Shown here one piece after another: positions 8,349-56,181 of a stretch of 64,000 bases of DNA. The position numbers and the translations under genes are program-made. The notes below the pieces were generated by a model, which was not told where the DNA came from, did not search any database, and saw only the letters and a program-made list of their open reading frames with translations. Position 1 is the stretch's first letter. Each line of letters starts with the position of its first letter. Source of the DNA: Parabacteroides massiliensis (GTDB taxonomy: Bacteria; Bacteroidota; Bacteroidia; Bacteroidales; Tannerellaceae); contig NZ_LT700191.1 of NCBI RefSeq assembly GCF_900155425.1, forward strand, positions 1,777,700-1,841,699, given 5' to 3'.

Positions 8349-8592
8349 GTACGCGTATACATTATTCCTCATTCTTCTTGTGCAGGACTTTGTTGGTGCT
8401 CATCTGTGGATTTTATGGTTCGTCTCGTAAATAAGCGTTTTCGTACAGGATAGCTTATCTTGTTGATAAGAAAGAATATAGAAAAGGAAAAAATATTAAG
8501 GAAAAGGATTGTTGATTTAAAAGTTATGCGTATTTTTGCCAAAAGAAATTCGTACGCAATAGTATTTGATTATAAGATTTTTAAGACGTACG
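8349..8592. other. Spacer upstream of DUF6383 gene 1, with four CGTACG/ACGCGT-type sites around the promoter block
   Basis: Sites at 8349 (GTACGCGTA), 8442 (CGTACA), 8551 (CGTACG) and 8587 (CGTACGCGTT) bracket the promoter block shared with the locus at 54.7 kb. The site at 8584-8593 (AGACGTACGC) matches 9 of 10 bases of ARACGTWCGT. The outer pair shares only a 7-8 bp ACGCGT-centred core, so whether this block can still invert is unclear. No gene is seen in the 8249-8644 spacer. Confidence 0.4.
8509..8538 (+). promoter_or_regulatory. Promoter of DUF6383 gene 1, pointing at the gene (ON)
   Basis: TTG (8509-8511), 19 bp, TATTTTTG (8531-8538) is an excellent match to the consensus. The A-rich upstream block 8441-8538 aligns without gaps to 54716-54813 (about three quarters identical, with a 24-base exact run centred on AAGAAAGAATATAG). 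The leader is about 100 nt. Confidence 0.85.
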
Positions 8593-8644: not shown

Positions 8645-11600
8645 ATGAACAAAAAGTTTTCTACACTTTTGGCAGGGGTTGCATTGTTAGGTGCGATGTC
8701 TGCTAATGCAGGGGATCCTGTAACATCCTTGAAGAAGACGGGTAATGGCTTGTATCAATTGAAAGCTGCTGATGGAGTGTTGGCAATGACTCCGGAAGGA
8801 GCTTTGAGATTGGAAGGAAGTACTACGTCTGCAAATTTAGCAAGTACATTGTGGTGTGTTGAAGTAACTGAAGAAGGTTTCGGAAAAGCTCCTATCTTTG
8901 ATTTCACAAACAAAGCTACCGGTCAGCGTCTGGATATCCAGTATGCTGGAACTCTGTTGGAAGGTTTGGCTGGAAGTACAGCTACTTATACTGATACTGA
9001 TTCTACCCGTGTAGGTGGTGAAATTTCAGGTTGGGCATTCTTGAGTCAGTACACTTCTATTCCGTCTTCTGAACAAGCAGGTAAGACTTTGTATTCTTAT
9101 TTCAAAACTGACTCTGTTATCGGTTTGAAAGCTAATAACGCAAATATTCAGGTTGTGAAGGAAGCGGCGGCTAAAGTTTCTGCAGATGCTGTGGCAGGGT
9201 CTCTTTTGACAAAATTCGCTCTTGTAGAAGCCGACATGATTCGTTTGGCTGCTCCTGAAATCAATACGATTTTAGGTTTGCAGGATGCTGACAAGGGGGT
9301 TGCCTTAACATTTACGCCGGATGAAGAGGGTGCAAAGGTAAAAGTTGCCAACCCGTTCAACGGAAAGAATGCCGGCAAGTTCTTTGCTGAAGCAATTACA
9401 GGTGATAATGATTATGTGTATGTGTTAAATTCGGATTCTTCTTATCTGCGTGTGGATACAACTGTCGTAAACGCAAGTGGTGAAAGATTCCGTGCATTCT
9501 ATTGGGATAATTTGACTCATGCAAAACTTCAGGCAAGTAAAGCTGCAACGAAACCGACTTCTCCTGCTGACTCAATTGGCAAATCGACAATTAAAGAACA
9601 GTATAAGTTCGCTTTCTCTTACTATCCTTCAAAAGACAGCTTGGTAATCCAGGTTGAAGAAGCTAAAGCTTATGATCCGGCAAATGGCCAAAATGGTTCT
9701 AACTGGGTTGATGGTTCAACCACAACGCTTCCTACAGCTTCTGCTGCAGGTACAAACAACTTTGTAACCGTTCAGGACCTGATCAAAGATGCAGTTCGTA
9801 TTGTTACTGTTTATGACAAGAAGGAAACGAATATTTCCTTGGGTTATAAAGGTTGTGAAGCCGTTTACAACGGTCGTACTTCTGTTGAAGACGGTTTGTA
9901 TTTCATCATGAACCAGAAAGGTCAATATTTGGCTTCTCCGATCCATAAAAATGGTGACTTGGAATGGGTAACTGTTAAGGCAGACGAACAGCTTACAGCT
10001 CACATGCCTGCATACCAGTGGGTTGTATTGAAGAAGAATACAGCAGATAAGGTAAAAGATTATTCTCCTGTAATTGTAACAAACCGCGAATATGACACTA
10101 AAACAGCAACAGCTCAACTGATGTTGAACGAAGGTGCTAAATATATGTACACATCTGCAGTTGGAATTAATATCGCGACAACAGACTCTTTGATCTTTGT
10201 ACAGGTGAAAGATGCTGAAGGTGTTAAGGGCAATGCTGCTTTGATTGCTGAAGCTTATCAGGATTCATTGTTAGGCTATAAGAACATCAAAGATGCCAAG
10301 TTCTTCTTGGATGAATTCACATTCAAGTATCTGCATCCGTATGCAACCGGCGAAAACAGTAAGTATTTGGCTAAGGGTGCAGGTAAGGATTCTTTGCTGA
10401 ATGTATTGAACGGTAAAGATGCTTTCCGTCTGACTGAAGAAGCAATTGCCAATTATGGTTATACTGTAACGAATGATGTTGCAAAACGTATTGGTATCAA
10501 GCAGTTGCGTAGAACAGAATATGCAATCTCCTTGAAGAATGCTTATATGGACGAAGCTACTGAAAATAAATATGCAATGTCTGCTTCTGCTGATCCTATC
10601 GATTATTTCTTCTTCAAAGAAAATAACCATTACGAAGGTGAATGCTATTATGCAATCGTAAAGGCTGAGAATGATGAAATCTCAGACGTTAAGGCTGGTG
10701 TTACGGACGATATCCTGGATGCAACAGTTAAAGTTCAGCCGTTAAGTGAAACAAGAACTTCTGCATTCGCGATCAATCCGGATGAGACTCCGTTGTATCG
10801 TCGTTTCAACAATGCAAATCTTGGTGAAGCTGATGGTCGTGACACTTTGAGATTCTACGAAAACGTACGTCATGAATATCTGATGGACGAAAATAATAAG
10901 GCTGGTGGTCTGACAGACGAAAATGTTGACTATGTCGGTATGTGGACTGCGGACAAAGCAACAGGCTTGGCATTCCAGATCGATACGACTTGGGTTGTTC
11001 GTGGACGTGGTTATATCAAACCTCAGTACCTGATTTCAGTTGCTCACAATGATTTCGCCGGTATCGAAGGAACTCCTTGTACGGAAGACGGTCCGCATAT
11101 TACGGCCGACGGTAAGGTAACAGACGATCCTATGGCTTGTAAGCATGCTCGTCCTGCTATCCCTGGATTCGAAAGAGCTAAGTATATGGTTAGCTTCCAA
11201 GATTCTGTAGCAGTTTATGGTCAAGACAAACCGTATGCAGACGTAGCTGGTGGTTACACTCGCGTTGGTTTCGTTGAAGGTATCCGTATCGCTGATACAT
11301 TGTGGATTTTGCCGGCTCAATATAGAGGCGTGGCTAACGAGAAAGTAAACTTCGCAACTCTGCAAGCATACAACGATTCTGTTGTAGCCAAAGGCCAGCC
11401 TGCTATCAAGAATCTGTTGACTGAAGATGTTCATAAGAACTACGTATGGTCATTCCGTTATGTACATCCTGAAAAGGCGAACAACGTAACAGAAGAAGGA
11501 CAGGATAACTCATTCTTGTTCGAATCGAACATTTGGCCGAATTCTGCAACTACAGTCAATGCTTCCATCGCTCCTACAGACAAGGCTGCATGGTTGAAGA

Positions 11601-11941
11601 TCCAGAATGGTTGCATTGTTTTGACAGATGATAAATCTACATTCGCCAATGCTAAGACTGGTGGTGACGGAGCTTTGGTTTTCAACGTAGAGAACGAAGA
11701 AAACGATCAGTTGGCTACAGATAACGAAACTATCGCTACATCTGAAGTAACAGTGATTGCCGGTAACGGTAATATTAAGATCGTGGGTGCTCAAGGTAAG
11801 AAGGTTGTTATCTCTAACATCTTGGGCCAGACAGTTGCCAACACAGTTATCACTTCAAGCGACGCTACAATCGCTGCTCCTCAGGGTGTAGTCGTAGTAG
11901 CTGTTGAAGGCGAAGAAGCTGTTAAAGCAATCGTTAAATAA
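8645..11941 (+). CDS. Large secreted DUF6383-type protein (surface-layer-like), gene 1
   Basis: A 1098-residue protein whose real start is the ATG at 8645, giving signal peptide MNKKFSTLLAGVALLGAMSANA. I see no catalytic motif. The body is a long, mainly beta-rich sequence with repeated phrases such as LYFIMNQKGQYLASPI. The last 64 residues (VTVIAGNGNIKIVGAQGKKV ... AVEGEEAVKAIVK) are nearly identical to the end of the protein at 51880 and resemble a Por-type C-terminal beta-sandwich. Codon choice (GCT, GAA, AAC, CGT) looks like that of an abundant protein. From family knowledge it may belong to the phase-variable S-layer-like glycoproteins described in Parabacteroides distasonis; that is inference. 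A strong terminator follows. Confidence 0.85.
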   Translation: MNKKFSTLLAGVALLGAMSANAGDPVTSLKKTGNGLYQLKAADGVLAMTPEGALRLEGSTTSANLASTLWCVEVTEEGFGKAPIFDFTNKATGQRLDIQYAGTLLEGLAGSTATYTDTDSTRVGGEISGWAFLSQYTSIPSSEQAGKTLYSYFKTDSVIGLKANNANIQVVKEAAAKVSADAVAGSLLTKFALVEADMIRLAAPEINTILGLQDADKGVALTFTPDEEGAKVKVANPFNGKNAGKFFAEAITGDNDYVYVLNSDSSYLRVDTTVVNASGERFRAFYWDNLTHAKLQASKAATKPTSPADSIGKSTIKEQYKFAFSYYPSKDSLVIQVEEAKAYDPANGQNGSNWVDGSTTTLPTASAAGTNNFVTVQDLIKDAVRIVTVYDKKETNISLGYKGCEAVYNGRTSVEDGLYFIMNQKGQYLASPIHKNGDLEWVTVKADEQLTAHMPAYQWVVLKKNTADKVKDYSPVIVTNREYDTKTATAQLMLNEGAKYMYTSAVGINIATTDSLIFVQVKDAEGVKGNAALIAEAYQDSLLGYKNIKDAKFFLDEFTFKYLHPYATGENSKYLAKGAGKDSLLNVLNGKDAFRLTEEAIANYGYTVTNDVAKRIGIKQLRRTEYAISLKNAYMDEATENKYAMSASADPIDYFFFKENNHYEGECYYAIVKAENDEISDVKAGVTDDILDATVKVQPLSETRTSAFAINPDETPLYRRFNNANLGEADGRDTLRFYENVRHEYLMDENNKAGGLTDENVDYVGMWTADKATGLAFQIDTTWVVRGRGYIKPQYLISVAHNDFAGIEGTPCTEDGPHITADGKVTDDPMACKHARPAIPGFERAKYMVSFQDSVAVYGQDKPYADVAGGYTRVGFVEGIRIADTLWILPAQYRGVANEKVNFATLQAYNDSVVAKGQPAIKNLLTEDVHKNYVWSFRYVHPEKANNVTEEGQDNSFLFESNIWPNSATTVNASIAPTDKAAWLKIQNGCIVLTDDKSTFANAKTGGDGALVFNVENEENDQLATDNETIATSEVTVIAGNGNIKIVGAQGKKVVISNILGQTVANTVITSSDATIAAPQGVVVVAVEGEEAVKAIVK

Positions 11942-24693: not shown

Positions 24694-26121
24694 ATGGCAT
24701 ACACAGACTTTATAGCGGCCATCGACCTTGGCTCTTCTCACATGGTCGGTATGGTAGGTACGAAAGGCCCTTCGGGTTTCCTTTCCATTATTGCCTACGA
24801 AGTGGAGAACTCCGATACCAGTATACGAAGAGGATGTGTATATAATATAAAAGATGCAGCCGGCAAGATCGTGCGGTTGATCCGCAAACTGGAAAACAAG
24901 TTGGGCGGTTCTCGCATCGGCAAAGTCTATATCGGGGTGGGAGGCCAATCGCTTCGGTCGGTCAACCACGCTGTGTCGAGAGTGCTCGGTAGCGGAACGG
25001 TGACCGAGGAGGTGCTGAAGGAGTTGGATCGGGAATGCCGGCAGTATCGTCCCGATATGCTGGACGTGTTGGATGTGGCCACGCCTGTTTATTATCTCGA
25101 CAACCAGCCGGAAGCTCATCCGGTAGGTCTGGGTTGTTCGCGTATCGAAGCCCGCTATAAGTTGCTCGTCGGCCGTCCGTCTCTCCGCCATGCCGTAACC
25201 ACGAATATGTCGGAGCAGATCAAACTCGATGTGGCTGGAGCCATTGTCTCACCGCTGGCATTGGCAGACCTGATCCTGACGGAACAGGAAAAACAGAAGG
25301 GTTGTGCGCTGATCGACTTCGGAGCAGGCGTCACTTCTGTCACGATGTACAAGGACGGCAGTCTGGCCGGTTTGTATGTTATCCCGTTGGGCAGCCATCT
25401 GATCACTCGCGACCTGATGTCTTTAGGTATGCCGGAGAAGGAAGCGGAGCGTGTCAAACGTACGTATGGAAACGCTATCTGGGAAAAAGACAACGAACAG
25501 CAGATGGTCTCGGTAGACTTGGCCGACGGACAGCATTCGAGCGAGGTCAAACTTTCAGAGATCAATATGGTGGTGGAAGCCCGCAGCCGTGAAATCATCG
25601 AAAATATATACGCCCGCCTGGAGGATACGGGAGTGGCGAAAGAACCCGGTTACAGTATCGTGATTGCCGGCAATGGAGCAGCGCTGAAGAATATGCGTGA
25701 AGCTCTAAGCGAACGTTTTAAGATGGACGTCCGTTATGCCTCCGTCCGGAAGGACCTGATTGCCGACGGCGAGATGATAGCCAACAATCCCGAATATACG
25801 ACTGCAGTCGCCCTGTTGCTGAAAGGAACGGAGAACTGCGCCCTTTATATCGCTCCCGAACCGGAGAAACCGAAAGTGGTGGAAACGAGGTTTGAGCCGA
25901 AGGAAGAACCCTTAATTGCTGAAATAGAGGAGAAAACGGAAGAACAGCCTGTTGAAAAGCAGGCCGTGGCTTCGGCTACGGCGGCTAAGAACCGTAATTC
26001 AGGAACCAAGAAAGAGGATGAAAAGAAGAAAAATAAGAGCTGGGGACTCGGTGATCTCTTTAAAAATGCGGTGGATAAGATGGGAGAGGGTATTGACAAG
26101 GCCTTGAAAGATGAGCAATAA
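24694..26121 (+). CDS. ftsA: Cell division protein FtsA
   Basis: A 475-residue actin-like ATPase that tethers FtsZ to the membrane. Phosphate loops DFIAAIDLGSSHMVGMVG and GCALIDFGAGVTSVTMYKDG and the adenosine motif IVIAGNGAAL are visible. After the core an approximately 70-residue Glu/Lys/Ala linker ends in KNKSWGLGDLFKNAVDKMGEGIDKALKDEQ, a plausible amphipathic membrane-targeting helix. The ATPase core is normal; the linker is low complexity. Confidence 0.95.
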   Translation: MAYTDFIAAIDLGSSHMVGMVGTKGPSGFLSIIAYEVENSDTSIRRGCVYNIKDAAGKIVRLIRKLENKLGGSRIGKVYIGVGGQSLRSVNHAVSRVLGSGTVTEEVLKELDRECRQYRPDMLDVLDVATPVYYLDNQPEAHPVGLGCSRIEARYKLLVGRPSLRHAVTTNMSEQIKLDVAGAIVSPLALADLILTEQEKQKGCALIDFGAGVTSVTMYKDGSLAGLYVIPLGSHLITRDLMSLGMPEKEAERVKRTYGNAIWEKDNEQQMVSVDLADGQHSSEVKLSEINMVVEARSREIIENIYARLEDTGVAKEPGYSIVIAGNGAALKNMREALSERFKMDVRYASVRKDLIADGEMIANNPEYTTAVALLLKGTENCALYIAPEPEKPKVVETRFEPKEEPLIAEIEEKTEEQPVEKQAVASATAAKNRNSGTKKEDEKKKNKSWGLGDLFKNAVDKMGEGIDKALKDEQ

Positions 26122-51879: not shown

Positions 51880-54537
51880 TCATTTAACGATCGCTTTAAC
51901 AGCTTCTTCGCCTTCAACAGCTACAACGACTACACCGGCAGGAGCAGCGATTGTTGCGTTGTCTGAAGCGATAACTGTGTTAGCAACTGTCTGGCCTAAG
52001 ACGTTAGAGATAACAACCTTCTTGCCGGCAGCGCCTGCGATAGTCAACTGGCCTTTACCTGCTACTACAGTAACATTAGAAACTTTTACGTTTTCGTTAG
52101 AAGTCGGGATTGCAGAAGTTCTTGTTACTACTACAGGCAGAGCATCCTGGTCTGTTGAGATTACAACTACACCGTTGATCTGAGCCAAACGAGCTTTTCT
52201 GTTCTTAGCCGGGTGGATTGTGTACTGGTTTTCAACGTCAGTGAGCTTGAACAAGAATGTGTTGTCAGCAGCCTGAGCCTTAGCCATTGTGTCGTTGATC
52301 TTAGCTTTTCCAGTTACGAATACCAAGCTGTCGTTGTTAACTTTGTAAGAACCATCCTTAGTCAAGAAGTCACCTGCCAAAGAATCACCTTCAGCTACGA
52401 TAGCAGCATCCTTCATGATGTAGTAAGTCGGCAACAGACGCAGACCCGGTTCGTCAGATACACATGCAGAGTCGATCCACAATGAGAAGTTTTCTTCGAT
52501 TGCTTCAACGCTACCCAGATTGTCTCCGGTGCTTAAGAACTTAGCGTCCATGTTTTCTTTCTTAGTCAGGACTTCGTTTTCAGACAAGTCACCGCTGTCA
52601 ACTGTACCCTTGCTGTTGTCAACGATTACATAGTGACCGGCTTCCAGACGTGCATATTCTGCGTCGTCCAATGTGTAGTTGATAGTGAACAGAGAAACAT
52701 CATTGTTTGTAGTCTGTGTAGAAGTTGTCGTACCGCCGTTTTCGTGTACACGTACTGCCCAACCACCAGAAGTGTTGCTGCAATTGATTGTTTCAATGCC
52801 TTTTGTATTGAACAACATCTTGTATTCACCTTCGTTTTCAGCCTTGAAGTAGAAGCAACGGAGCTGCTGGTCTTCTTTTGTAGTCAACGTAATGTTGTTG
52901 TTGTTTTCAGTTGCGATAAGACCGATCCACAATGTGTCGGCATCAGCGTTCAGAGTGTAGAGGTGATACATTGCCAATGTGTCTGTAGCGAATGTCTTTT
53001 CACCATCTTCATTCAAGTTGAAGTTTCTTGAGTCTGCAAATTTAGCACGGAATTCCAACGGAGCGTCAGTCTTCAATACGTTCAAAGAAGAGTCTTCGTT
53101 CATAACCATGTATACGTCTTCAGCACCCAATTTGTTTACCAAACCTAAAGTGAAAGAAGAAGATTCCAGTTCGTCACCATCGAATACTTTGTAACCATAG
53201 TTAGCATCGATTGCTTTTACGGCAACAGTATCAGTTGAATTCAGAATGAAATAAGTATCATCGCAAGTAGTTACTTTCTTGATGTTATAGTTACCACCAT
53301 AGAAACGGTTTGTTGCTTTATAAGAATAGATACCGTCTTCGAAAGAAGAAGTGATCATCCACTGGTTTTCAGGAACGTATTCGTTTGTATAAGCAGCCTG
53401 TGCATTACCATTGTTTGCACTACCAACTGCACATACTGTACCGAACGGAACACCCCAAATCTTACCATCCTTAGCAGTCAGGATATACAAGCCATCGGCC
53501 AACGGCTGACCCGGTTCGATCTGTGCAGGAGCAGGAGTCCAATAAGGCATACCGTTTGTCGGGTTGTAAAGGCTGTCTACTGTGATATATTCAACTTCGT
53601 CGTTGATGAAACGGGCATTACCCAACCATGCAACAGCTTCGCCTTCATTTACTACATTCTCAGCCAATTTTTTGTTTACGACATCCCAACCCAAAACTGA
53701 ATCCATAACAGCGACAGCGATACTGTCGTTAACCGGGTTGAATAAGATACCGAAATGATCGAAAGCAGATTCTGCACCAAATGCTACGTTGAAACCAAAC
53801 ACTTTATTCTGGCGAGGATCGCCTACGTTTACAGTTGATTTCTCTGTTACATTGGTAGAATCTACAGCCAAGAATTTGTCGGAAGTCTTGGACTGGATTG
53901 TGAAGATTGTATCTGTGCTTTGAGCATCAGCTGCTGTTGATACGAATTCATAAGCAGCGTCTTCCAATTCGATACCTTCCATTTGTGCGAACAAAGGAAC
54001 CATGTATTTAGCACATTGGTTCAATTCTGCAACAGACATCCAGTGAGTCATGTCGTTCGGCAAAGCCAGAATCAAAGACAAGTCGTTGTCTGCATAGATC
54101 GTAGTGTCAGGAACGATAGTCTTCGGGAAAGTACCCCAGTTGTTGTCACGAGTAGCAATTGTGAATCCACCTTCTACAGTGAACAATTTTTTGAAATCAA
54201 CCGGAGTAGATACGTTTAATGTATCCATCTGATGTCTTACGGCATCTTTGTCACCAACGGCAAACCATTCTTCACCGTTTAATTTCAAAGTCGTGTTAGT
54301 AGCTTTGTTTGTAAATTTGTAAACAAAGTTACCTGAAGTCGCACGAGAATCCACATCCACTTTCCACAAAGAGGCAGCAGTCATTGTTGCTGGATCGTTT
54401 TGTGCAACAAGTACAGTGGAGTCACCTTTCTTTACCAATTCACCTCTACCAGTCTGAATCTTCAGATATTGTGCATTGGTAGAAAATGAAACTAAAGCAA
54501 ATGCTCCACACACAAGAGTAGAAACAATTTTGTTCAT
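51880..54537 (-). CDS. Large secreted DUF6383-type protein (surface-layer-like), gene 2
   Basis: An 885-residue protein with signal peptide MNKIVSTLVCGAFALVSFSTNA. The mature part starts QYLKIQTGRGELVKKGDSTV and contains FVYKFTNKATNTTLKLNGEE, similar in style to gene 1 (IFDFTNKATGQRLDI). The last 64 residues are nearly identical to those of gene 1 (GKKVVISNVLGQTVANTVI ... VEGEEAVKAIVK), while most of the body differs. Codon use again suggests an abundant protein. Its upstream promoter block is reversed (see 54649-54846), so in the genome as sequenced it is probably silent. A role as an alternative S-layer-like surface protein is inferred. Confidence 0.85.
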   Translation of the reverse strand: MNKIVSTLVCGAFALVSFSTNAQYLKIQTGRGELVKKGDSTVLVAQNDPATMTAASLWKVDVDSRATSGNFVYKFTNKATNTTLKLNGEEWFAVGDKDAVRHQMDTLNVSTPVDFKKLFTVEGGFTIATRDNNWGTFPKTIVPDTTIYADNDLSLILALPNDMTHWMSVAELNQCAKYMVPLFAQMEGIELEDAAYEFVSTAADAQSTDTIFTIQSKTSDKFLAVDSTNVTEKSTVNVGDPRQNKVFGFNVAFGAESAFDHFGILFNPVNDSIAVAVMDSVLGWDVVNKKLAENVVNEGEAVAWLGNARFINDEVEYITVDSLYNPTNGMPYWTPAPAQIEPGQPLADGLYILTAKDGKIWGVPFGTVCAVGSANNGNAQAAYTNEYVPENQWMITSSFEDGIYSYKATNRFYGGNYNIKKVTTCDDTYFILNSTDTVAVKAIDANYGYKVFDGDELESSSFTLGLVNKLGAEDVYMVMNEDSSLNVLKTDAPLEFRAKFADSRNFNLNEDGEKTFATDTLAMYHLYTLNADADTLWIGLIATENNNNITLTTKEDQQLRCFYFKAENEGEYKMLFNTKGIETINCSNTSGGWAVRVHENGGTTTSTQTTNNDVSLFTINYTLDDAEYARLEAGHYVIVDNSKGTVDSGDLSENEVLTKKENMDAKFLSTGDNLGSVEAIEENFSLWIDSACVSDEPGLRLLPTYYIMKDAAIVAEGDSLAGDFLTKDGSYKVNNDSLVFVTGKAKINDTMAKAQAADNTFLFKLTDVENQYTIHPAKNRKARLAQINGVVVISTDQDALPVVVTRTSAIPTSNENVKVSNVTVVAGKGQLTIAGAAGKKVVISNVLGQTVANTVIASDNATIAAPAGVVVVAVEGEEAVKAIVK

Positions 54538-54648
54538 AATTCTAAAATGTTTAATTAATAAATAGTATATCTATATGTTCATTGTCTTCTTTTTGGAGAA
54601 ACCCTTGTTTTACAAGCGTTAACCAAATACCTGTATAATGACGAGATA

Positions 54649-54846
54649 AAACGTACGTTTTTTTTAGTCATTTTCTTTCGAGGAATTAGGGGGTTTGTAT
54701 AGGAAAGGTGGTTTTTCGTACGGTTTAAGCTATCTAATTGATAAGAAAGAATATAGAAAAGAAAATTTTATTGGAAGAAAGGATTGCAGGTTTAAAAAGT
54801 AGTTGTATTTTTGTAGCTGAAAAATGGCGAATTTAAACGTACGTTT
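54649..54846. promoter_or_regulatory. Candidate invertible promoter segment (OFF orientation)
   Basis: Two copies of AAACGTACGTTT (54649-54660 and 54835-54846) bound 174 bp. The 13-mer AAAACGTACGTTT is a perfect inverted repeat between them. The core AAACGTACGT fits ARACGTWCGT, the crossover consensus I recall for serine-invertase-controlled capsule promoters of B. fragilis. Inside lies the only good promoter, and it points away from gene 2. The two sites also share a direct 26-base similarity (AAACGTACGTTTT, 4 bases, AGTCATTTT). Inversion would place the -7 box near 54682-54689 facing gene 2, with a roughly 140-nt leader. Confidence 0.75.
54784..54813 (+). promoter_or_regulatory. Promoter inside the invertible segment, facing parA
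   Basis: TTG (54784-54786), 19 bp, TATTTTTG (54806-54813). Same boxes, same spacing and an ungapped homologous upstream block as the promoter at 8509-8538. In the present orientation it would transcribe rightward into the 600-bp spacer before parA. Confidence 0.8.
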
Positions 54847-54941
54847 TCATCAGTCATTTTGAAGCGTATACCTATCTTTTTTATCTCCAATAACTTACAA
54901 ACAGAAAAATAATCGGACACAAGGCTGAATTCCGGATTTTT

Positions 54942-54969
54942 ATATTAAGGTACATGCGTACTTTAATAT
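54942..54969. repeat. Near-perfect palindrome in the spacer before parA
   Basis: ATATTAAGGTAC (54942-54953), loop ATGC, GTACTTTAATAT (54958-54969): 12-bp arms with one mismatch. No T run follows. It could weaken read-through from the reversed promoter or be a protein site. Confidence 0.5.
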
Positions 54970-55365
54970 GCACGTAAAGGAAAGTCAGTCAACTGTATAC
55001 ATGATATTTGCGCTCAACCCGTTTCTGTTGCCGAAATAGCCGAAATCGACCTGTTTGGGGGATAAACCCCACTGTTGAGTCTTCCCGTTGTTAACAAAAT
55101 GTAAATTATAAGCAGGTGAAAGTCCATTCTTACTCTACAGGCCCGATGAAGGGTTATTAACAAAAAAATAATATCCGGCCATTAGCTGAGGCAATTCCGG
55201 CTGGCTATGTCGTGCCGGACGACAAGGATTCGTTATCATTCCTAAAAAAGTACCATCCATCGCGCTCATTTGAAACAAGTTATTAAATATTCTGTTTATA
55301 TTTGCAAGTTATCAACAGATAAGGTGACTTTTCAACAAAACGGGCATTGTTTTGCTTAAACTGAT
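54970..55365. other. AT-rich spacer with four DnaA-box-like 9-mers upstream of parA
   Basis: TTGTTAACA (55088), TTATTAACA (55154), TTATCAACA (55309) and TTTTCAACA (55329) lie on the same strand within 250 bp. They differ from the classical TTATNCACA by A for C at position 7. No reading frame or tRNA is seen. Whether this is part of a replication origin cannot be decided here. Confidence 0.3.
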
Positions 55366-55394
55366 TTGTGTTAGGTTTTTAATGTTTAGTTTTG
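55366..55394 (+). promoter_or_regulatory. Promoter of parA-parB
   Basis: TTG (55366-55368), 18 bp, TAGTTTTG (55387-55394), with a leader of about 17 nt to the ATG at 55417. Confidence 0.65.
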
Positions 55395-55416
55395 CCTCCG
55401 AATAAATAGACAAAGT

Positions 55417-56181
55417 ATGGGAAAGATTATCGCTTTAGCAAATCAGAAAGGTGGGGTAGGCAAGACTACCACTACGATTAACCTGGCTGCGTCGTTGGCG
55501 GCACTTGAGAAGAAAGTGCTGGTGGTCGATGCGGATCCGCAGGCTAACGCTTCGTCGGGACTGGGCGTGGATATCCGCAGTGTGGAATTGTCCATCTATG
55601 AATGCCTGGTGAACGGCGACGACCCGAAAGGCGCGATTACCAATACGGAAGTGGAAGGGCTGGATATTATCCCTTCGCATATCGACCTGGTAGGAGCGGA
55701 GATTGAAATGCTGAACATGGAGAACCGGGAGCAGATATTGAAACAAGTGCTGGTCCCGTTGAAAGATCGATACGATTATATCCTGATCGACTGTTCTCCC
55801 TCTTTGGGACTGATCACGGTTAATGCCTTGACGGCGGCCGATTCGGTGATGATACCCGTGCAATGTGAGTATTTTGCGTTGGAAGGTATTAGTAAATTGT
55901 TGAATACGATAAAGATTATCAAATCGAAGCTGAATCCCGCATTGGAAATCGAAGGCTTCCTGCTGACCATGTACGACTCGCGTCTTCGTCTGGCCAACCA
56001 GATATACGAGGAGGTGAAACGTCCGTTCCGGGATTTGGTTTTCACAACCGTTATTCAGCGTAATGTCAAATTGAGCGAAGCTTCCAGCTACGGCAAACCT
56101 GTATTGCTTTACGATGCCGAGTCGAAAGGTGCTCTTAATCACATGCAGCTTGCACAGGAGCTGATAGATAAAAACAAATAG
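55417..56181 (+). CDS. parA: Chromosome partitioning ATPase ParA (Soj)
   Basis: A 254-residue Walker-type ATPase. The deviant P loop is NQKGGVGKTTTTINLA, followed by VLVVDADPQANASSGLG and YDYILIDCSPSLGLITVNAL. It binds DNA non-specifically as a dimer and helps move ParB-bound origins. The short N terminus without a helix-turn-helix fits chromosomal Soj rather than plasmid ParA. parB follows 11 bp later. Confidence 0.95.
   Translation: MGKIIALANQKGGVGKTTTTINLAASLAALEKKVLVVDADPQANASSGLGVDIRSVELSIYECLVNGDDPKGAITNTEVEGLDIIPSHIDLVGAEIEMLNMENREQILKQVLVPLKDRYDYILIDCSPSLGLITVNALTAADSVMIPVQCEYFALEGISKLLNTIKIIKSKLNPALEIEGFLLTMYDSRLRLANQIYEEVKRPFRDLVFTTVIQRNVKLSEASSYGKPVLLYDAESKGALNHMQLAQELIDKNK

Follow-up and report, generated by a model that had tools for sequence, protein, structure and literature searches.

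A putative Mpi-type invertible promoter, stored OFF, upstream of a DUF6383 gene in Parabacteroides massiliensis

Introduction

How is a gene expressed when the promoter beside it points the other way? This question is raised by a 64,000-nucleotide stretch of Parabacteroides massiliensis DNA (G000:C3:1777700-1841699, G000 being the genome that carries it; hereafter the window), in which the promoter next to a DUF6383 gene lies between two copies of the sequence AAACGTACGTTT. An earlier note on this DNA had proposed an ON/OFF surface switch caught in its OFF state. Here we compare the segment with its relatives within the same genome and across the genus.

Results

A promoter between identical repeats faces away from the DUF6383 gene

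The two 12-bp cores are identical, each is itself palindromic, and they stand 186 bp apart, start to start. The 174-bp segment that the earlier note had placed between them was recovered at exactly those coordinates (Table 1). Over 100 rounds of dinucleotide shuffling, the window gave a single exact copy of AAACGTACGTTT in total and no AAACGNNCGTTT pair spaced 100-300 bp. The repeats exceed 12 bp, with inverted arms that are 74% complementary over 38 nt. As the note had also held, the promoter, whose end lies 21 bp short of the right repeat, is directed away from the gene, and no TAnnTTTG box reads toward the gene between the segment and its ATG: the minus strand has none in 54538-55416, and none from repeat to ATG even with one mismatch. 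The note's description of this promoter as the only consensus one in the spacer holds for the segment itself, where its TAnnTTTG box is the sole one, but not for the spacer as a whole, as two further plus-strand boxes lie nearer parA (TATATTTG at 55297 and TAGTTTTG at 55387; parA begins at 55417).

Repeat-like sites with one or two mismatches also occur in the window at 10861, 25456, 25707, 44129 and 56017. The pair 25456/25707 was rejected as a switch (it sits within the ORF 24694-26121 and has no promoter box), as was the pair 56017/56257, which has no promoter box inside.

Table 1. Features of the switch, its target gene, the fixed-promoter sibling and the DUF6383 switches of the same genome (window coordinates, except where a locus is named).
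Feature	Position	Strand	Remarks
Gene-proximal inverted-repeat core AAACGTACGTTT, centre TA	54649-54660	.	repeat and motif search
Gene-distal inverted-repeat core AAACGTACGTTT, centre TA	54835-54846	.	repeat and motif search
Putative extended left recombination site, GTCA-type arms around core	54637-54674	.	arm consensus over related switches
Putative extended right recombination site	54821-54858	.	arm consensus over related switches
Predicted invertible interior, 174 bp	54661-54834	+	strand given is the promoter's, as stored (OFF); reversed interiors seen at related switches
Bacteroides-type promoter TTG-N19-TATTTTTG	54784-54813	+	-7 box 54806-54813
Shared element TTGATAAGAAAG	54738-54749	+	68 bp upstream of -7 box, start to start
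Leader, repeat to ATG, 111 bp	54538-54648	-	no TAnnTTTG in gene direction
Target gene, 885 aa, C-terminal DUF6383	51880-54537	-	N-terminus signal-peptide-like (by eye)
DUF6383 (PF19910), residues 811-884, probable T9SS sorting domain	51886-52107	-	106.9 bits, cut-off 23.7
Fixed-promoter DUF6383 sibling, 1098 aa from its ATG	8645-11941	+	adjoins rsmH
Sibling promoter of the same type, directed into the gene	8509-8538	+	no repeat pair
TTGATAAGAAAG of the sibling	8463-8474	+	
Window switch	54649-54846		OFF
Switch, same genome	L034:5056		ON
Switch, same genome	L034:11961 (unit to 19015)		OFF; two-gene unit
Switch, same genome	L035:6065		OFF; core AT
Switch, same genome	L036:9303		OFF

The DUF6383 protein behind the segment

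The target gene begins 111 bp from the left repeat, and 'giant', the word used for its product in the earlier note, overstates a protein of 885 aa: among the seven strong PF19910 matches in this genome (at least 93 bits), five lie in longer proteins (950-1592 aa) and one in a shorter one (840 aa). Excerpts of PMC9722745 describe DUF6383 as a putative T9SS targeting domain. The protein has the DUF6383 C-terminus, and the genome the T9SS translocon (SprA, 2972 bits, cut-off 200), that mark a T9SS cargo with such a tail. When four DUF6383 proteins were scored against the T9SS type A sorting model TIGR04183 (cut-off 23 bits), neither the 885-aa protein nor the fixed-promoter sibling matched, and two paralogs scored 8.2 and 9.4 bits near the C-terminus, below the cut-off; because it falls below that cut-off, the 885-aa protein is not assigned to type A cargo. 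We infer that it reaches the surface through the T9SS and is displayed there as an S-layer-like protein. A protein search (7998 candidates scored) returned 16 matches: nine, counting the query itself, reach at least 58% identity, and seven cover only 9-17%. A search of solved structures gave two chance matches only (best E 0.42), and thus no solved relative by sequence.

Interiors of related switches are found reversed

We compared switch interiors, as they stand and reversed, in six pairs of switches. At one locus shared by G013 (L193, OFF) and G037 (L211, ON), the upstream and gene-side flanks are 93.7% and 97.8% identical, and the interiors are 67.5% identical as stored and 95.4% when one is reversed. 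The same held for G012 (L122, OFF) and G014 (L132, ON), again at one locus, with flanks of 82.3% and 100% and an interior that rose from 53.4% as stored to 87.9% reversed. Within a single genome, G017, the ON switch L213 and the OFF switch L216 have flanks of 97% and 100% and interiors that are 58.7% identical as stored and 100% reversed. In their first 600 bases, the genes behind these three opposite-state pairs are more divergent (74.0, 73.3 and 63.3% identical, in the order G013/G037, G012/G014, G017). Two same-state pairs gave the opposite result, with interiors 86.8% and 89.1% identical as stored and 54.0% and 56.3% reversed, as did the window switch and its G019 counterpart, both OFF (77.0% as stored, 58.0% reversed).

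The two G017 switches lie near contig ends, with identical reversed interiors, nearly identical flanks and different genes behind them. Like switches and flanks before unlike genes suggest that gene bodies have been swapped while the switch in front of them was conserved.

In Parabacteroides sp. RGIG4678, the target gene has an ortholog (L109; 71-73%, the 73% match being at G018:C40) that has no repeats, and a homologous promoter is directed into the gene. The target gene also has an ortholog in G019 (65%) with repeats present and the switch OFF. On the parA side, the locus can be followed into G012 and G014, where parA is 98-99% identical and a switch stands at the same place, OFF in both. 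The protein behind it in G014 is 70% identical to the window protein over a 90-aa tail and 21% identical over 430 aa elsewhere; the G012 protein is 32% identical over the C-terminal 576 aa.

The earlier note had proposed a comparison of the segment among strains; made here among related genomes, it cut both ways: it yielded reversed interiors at other same-locus switches, but an OFF orientation both at the parA-side locus of G012 and G014 and at the G019 ortholog. Both orientations are represented among paralogs in the window's genome and, in other species, among switches that share a locus, all of these loci being other than the window's own. Since the parA-side locus and the G019 ortholog are all OFF, a static outward promoter would fit them too. 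Such a promoter would serve the plus side, toward which it does point and where parA lies, and the palindromes would be relics or protein-binding sites; the syntenic loci of G012 and G014 have it in the same orientation. However, parA has two boxes nearer to it, the architecture recurs at other loci in both orientations, and the target-gene ortholog has the homologous promoter directly before the gene. We therefore consider a static promoter very unlikely.

Repeat cores are matched and inverted

Because the 12-mer is palindromic and the region also aligns as a direct repeat (79% over 47 nt), the window alone cannot tell inversion from deletion. We ran the pattern AAACGNNCGTTT-N148-178-AAACGNNCGTTT on 38 whole genomes of the genus and obtained 67 forward matches in 14 of them, compared with one forward match for the reversed-pattern control in the same 38 genomes. 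Four GC-rich pairs, three overlapping in G011 and one in G027, were set aside before the cores were counted; they look like tandem repeats, and their cores are direct, inverted and unmatched in G011 (one each) and unmatched in G027. The count was thus made on 64 exact pairs, 63 of the 67 and one wider-spaced pair in G018.

In all 64 exact pairs examined, the two central dinucleotides are each other's reverse complement. The dinucleotide is specific to the locus (TA, AT, TT/AA or AC/GT) and matched within each pair. Forty-five cores are palindromic; the other 19 are inverted without exception (19/19, none direct), and some of these 19 pairs are mutual orthologs, so that not all are independent. 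The inverted polarity of ARACGTWCGT-class repeats was resolved through these 19 non-palindromic relatives, the core of the window pair being palindromic. These data bear on the idea that the repeats mediate deletion or excision through direct-repeat recombination rather than inversion. The palindromic core would permit it, the direct alignment in the window (79% over 47 nt) is slightly better than the inverted one (74% over 38 nt), and one set-aside G011 pair has directly repeated cores. Nevertheless, every non-palindromic pair examined is inverted, and interiors are found reversed yet intact, which leaves deletion with almost no probability in our estimation.

In G004, two matched repeat pairs (L204 and L205) have no scored TAnnTTTG box. 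One stands before a 633-aa gene and the other between two divergent genes of ~1140 aa, SusC-like by eye.

A candidate invertase is encoded elsewhere in the genome

Serine recombinases need a matched 2-bp centre. Of the eight Resolvase-family matches in the window's genome, one (G000:C4:12190-12777) scores above the cut-off of the NCBIfam model for the master DNA invertase Mpi (NF009949; 318 vs. 272 bits). Two elements of an Mpi-type system, a Bacteroides -33/-7 promoter inside the segment and an Mpi-family serine invertase in the genome, are present. Across the genus, Mpi over the cut-off was found in 12 of 12 genomes with exact pairs that were not set aside, compared with 19 of the 26 other genomes (Fisher P 0.052); as it occurs in 31 of 38 genomes, this distribution alone says little about a link to Mpi.

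It is also conceivable that the promoter is truly invertible and is flipped by another serine or tyrosine recombinase rather than by the Mpi equivalog. Two more of the Resolvase-family enzymes are Mpi-like at scores below the cut-off (194 and 169 bits), there are 26 tyrosine-recombinase matches in the genome, and the capsule loci of P. distasonis carry tyrosine-recombinase genes in the available text of PMC8400631. On the other hand, the repeats are of the class published for Mpi (excerpts of PMC8375218), the matched 2-bp centre suits a serine recombinase, and no recombinase is near, the closest match to the switch being at window position 1765, ~53 kb off. A different recombinase is, in our view, unlikely, and the Mpi equivalog is the most likely agent.

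Sister switches are mostly stored OFF

PF19910 matches occur in nine places in the window's genome. Five of these DUF6383 genes or operons lie behind a repeat pair (spacing 182-186 bp, start to start) and the same promoter, one ON and four OFF (Table 1); the stretches scanned at the other four contained no such repeat pair. In the two-gene unit at L034, the first gene encodes a 658-aa protein that ends in a T9SS type A tail, and the second a DUF6383 protein of 1592 aa. Several DUF6383 paralogs thus each appear, by their architecture, to stand behind a switch-type promoter, as in the phase-variable Dgp family of P. distasonis.

At a sixth pair of this genome (L040:8387-8570), a polysaccharide-type gene lies 663 bp off, and the promoter faces away from it. 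Mpi-type switches like this one, near a gene of ~640 aa, are found in six genomes (L040, L129, L200, L192, L199 and L209), and all are without TTGATAAGAAAG. The gene at L040 has a polysaccharide biosynthesis domain; the five others were judged by similar protein starts or ends.

Across 15 genomes, 65 of the 72 DUF6383-type switches examined are OFF and seven are ON, which are states of assemblies and not population frequencies. Seventy-two is a lower bound, many weaker matches in G009, G013, G037 and others lying outside the set. ON states were found in G000 (1/5), G014 (1/8), G018 (1/3), G037 (1/4), G017 (2/4) and G025 (1/4), and none in G012 (0/8), G019 (0/1), G020 (0/5), G001 (0/10), G006 (0/1), G009 (0/3), G013 (0/4), G003 (0/3) and G004 (0/9). 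An OFF segment had served as the query for part of the loci, and only some of the matches to that query were examined, so ascertainment may account for a share of the OFF bias; in the subset with exact repeats, found by the orientation-blind pattern save for one G018 locus, five of 46 are ON. Strict mutual exclusion, with one ON switch per genome, was rejected as a rule, as G017 has two ON; with only seven ON among 72, no power to show exclusion elsewhere is expected.

G004 has 14 PF19910 matches; of the 11 examined, nine have a switch-like segment upstream, all OFF, one of them with a decayed repeat. At this last locus (L247), the promoter is directed away from the DUF6383 gene and the gene-proximal repeat has decayed, so the switch is perhaps locked OFF. 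It provides the sole unmatched core among the 72, where the true proximal repeat had decayed and a wrong site was taken; the row was kept as OFF.

A shared element and a fixed-promoter sibling

All 72 DUF6383 switches examined carry the 12-bp element TTGATAAGAAAG (67 exact, five with one mismatch), and in all 72 it starts 66-68 bp before the -7 box. Among 87 distinct promoter-bearing pairs with any target, 72 carry it; the other 15 (3-5 mismatches) stand before polysaccharide-type and other genes. For one carrier (L221), the stretch examined held no gene. In the window's genome, TTGATAAGAAAG occurs eight times: five occurrences belong to the DUF6383 switches and one to the fixed sibling, and the other two have no box at that distance. 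In an order-wide survey of 393 genomes, drawn evenly from a larger group and including three of this genus, TTGATAAGAAAG with a box gave 26 matches in eight genomes. Twenty-two adjoin genes with a start typical of the DUF6383 family or its operon (20 in G000, G001 and G003, two in another genus of the family), and four adjoin other genes or none.

The sibling, in the same window as the switch, looks constitutively ON from its sequence. It is syntenic beside rsmH in G012 and G014 (43% and 86% identical), where the promoters are also gene-directed and one decayed repeat (AGACGTACGTGT) remains, but no pair. A further homolog with a fixed promoter and no repeat pair is found in G004 (L239, 40% identical). 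Since fixed promoters retain TTGATAAGAAAG, we think it more likely that the element acts in transcription than in recombination alone.

Discussion

Our results argue strongly that the segment at 54649-54846 is a site-specific invertible promoter of the DUF6383 gene, stored OFF and very probably flipped by a serine invertase, for which the Mpi equivalog is the likeliest candidate. Reversed interiors at related loci, the gene-directed promoter at an ortholog and the matched, inverted cores together point to serine-invertase inversion. The ON/OFF switch proposed in the earlier note is supported by the same comparisons, by paralogs of the same genome in both states and by the presence of an Mpi equivalog. 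In the mechanism that we propose, both AAACG-TA-CGTTT sites would be bound by the invertase, most likely G000:C4:12190-12777, which would cleave them at the central dinucleotide and join the ends again after rotation. Inversion of the 174-bp interior would bring the -7 box to ~145 bp upstream of the ATG, and transcription would run through the proximal repeat. We infer that inversion occurs in the window's strain and that Mpi is its agent.

On our best reading of the sequence, this is a known kind of system, an Mpi-type invertible promoter stored OFF. Beyond the known kind are TTGATAAGAAAG, the fixed-promoter sibling in the same window and the strong OFF bias, and what specialists might expect less are the family-wide presence of TTGATAAGAAAG, the matched locus-specific cores and, again, the sibling. 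A broader scheme, which we put forward tentatively and hold to be somewhat less probable than its negation, is that the DUF6383 genes form one co-controlled surface coat, with an always-on sibling, mostly OFF invertible alternatives and TTGATAAGAAAG common to all. In this scheme, TTGATAAGAAAG, which lies near the middle of the segment, would be the site of a dedicated coat regulator or a recombination enhancer, and unlike switches, having different core dinucleotides, would not recombine with one another.

These findings suggest that, in Parabacteroides, inverting promoters control not only capsules but also a broad family of DUF6383-tailed, probably T9SS-exported surface proteins. Where a reference genome stores the switch OFF, the gene behind it looks as though it had no promoter. 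The set of loci, with its matched cores and shared cis element, offers a handle on how a gut symbiont silences most of its alternative coats and leaves a single fixed-promoter sibling on.

The closest known systems resemble the switch in different respects. In B. fragilis, Mpi controls invertible promoters in 13 regions, among them seven polysaccharide promoters, according to excerpts of PMC4747536 and PMC5903667, and the repeat given for this serine recombinase in the available text of PMC8375218, ARACGTTCGTN, agrees with the class ARACGTWCGT given in the earlier note. As far as these excerpts go, the two systems share a master serine invertase acting on scattered sites, repeats of the ARACGTTCGTN type and a promoter inside the segment. 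They differ in target, which is a single gene for a DUF6383-tailed surface protein here and a capsule operon there; the core dinucleotide varies between loci here, the pairing of B. fragilis cores being outside our comparison. The capsule switches PVR7-11 of B. intestinalis are similar in size (183-186 bp vs. cores 186 bp apart here), their repeat overlaps the Mpi repeat (GTTCGTTTAA overlaps AAACGTTCGTTT), and their transcription starts within the proximal repeat; unlike the switches described here, they have capsule operons as targets and one repeat sequence completely conserved across loci (all from excerpts of PMC8375218). Finally, P. distasonis has the phase-variable S-layer-like glycoproteins DgpA and DgpC (excerpts of PMC2943079 and PMC8400631). 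With these, the DUF6383 switch has in common the genus and membership of a family that appears phase-variable, and a tie to the phase-variable glycoproteins of P. distasonis is likely.
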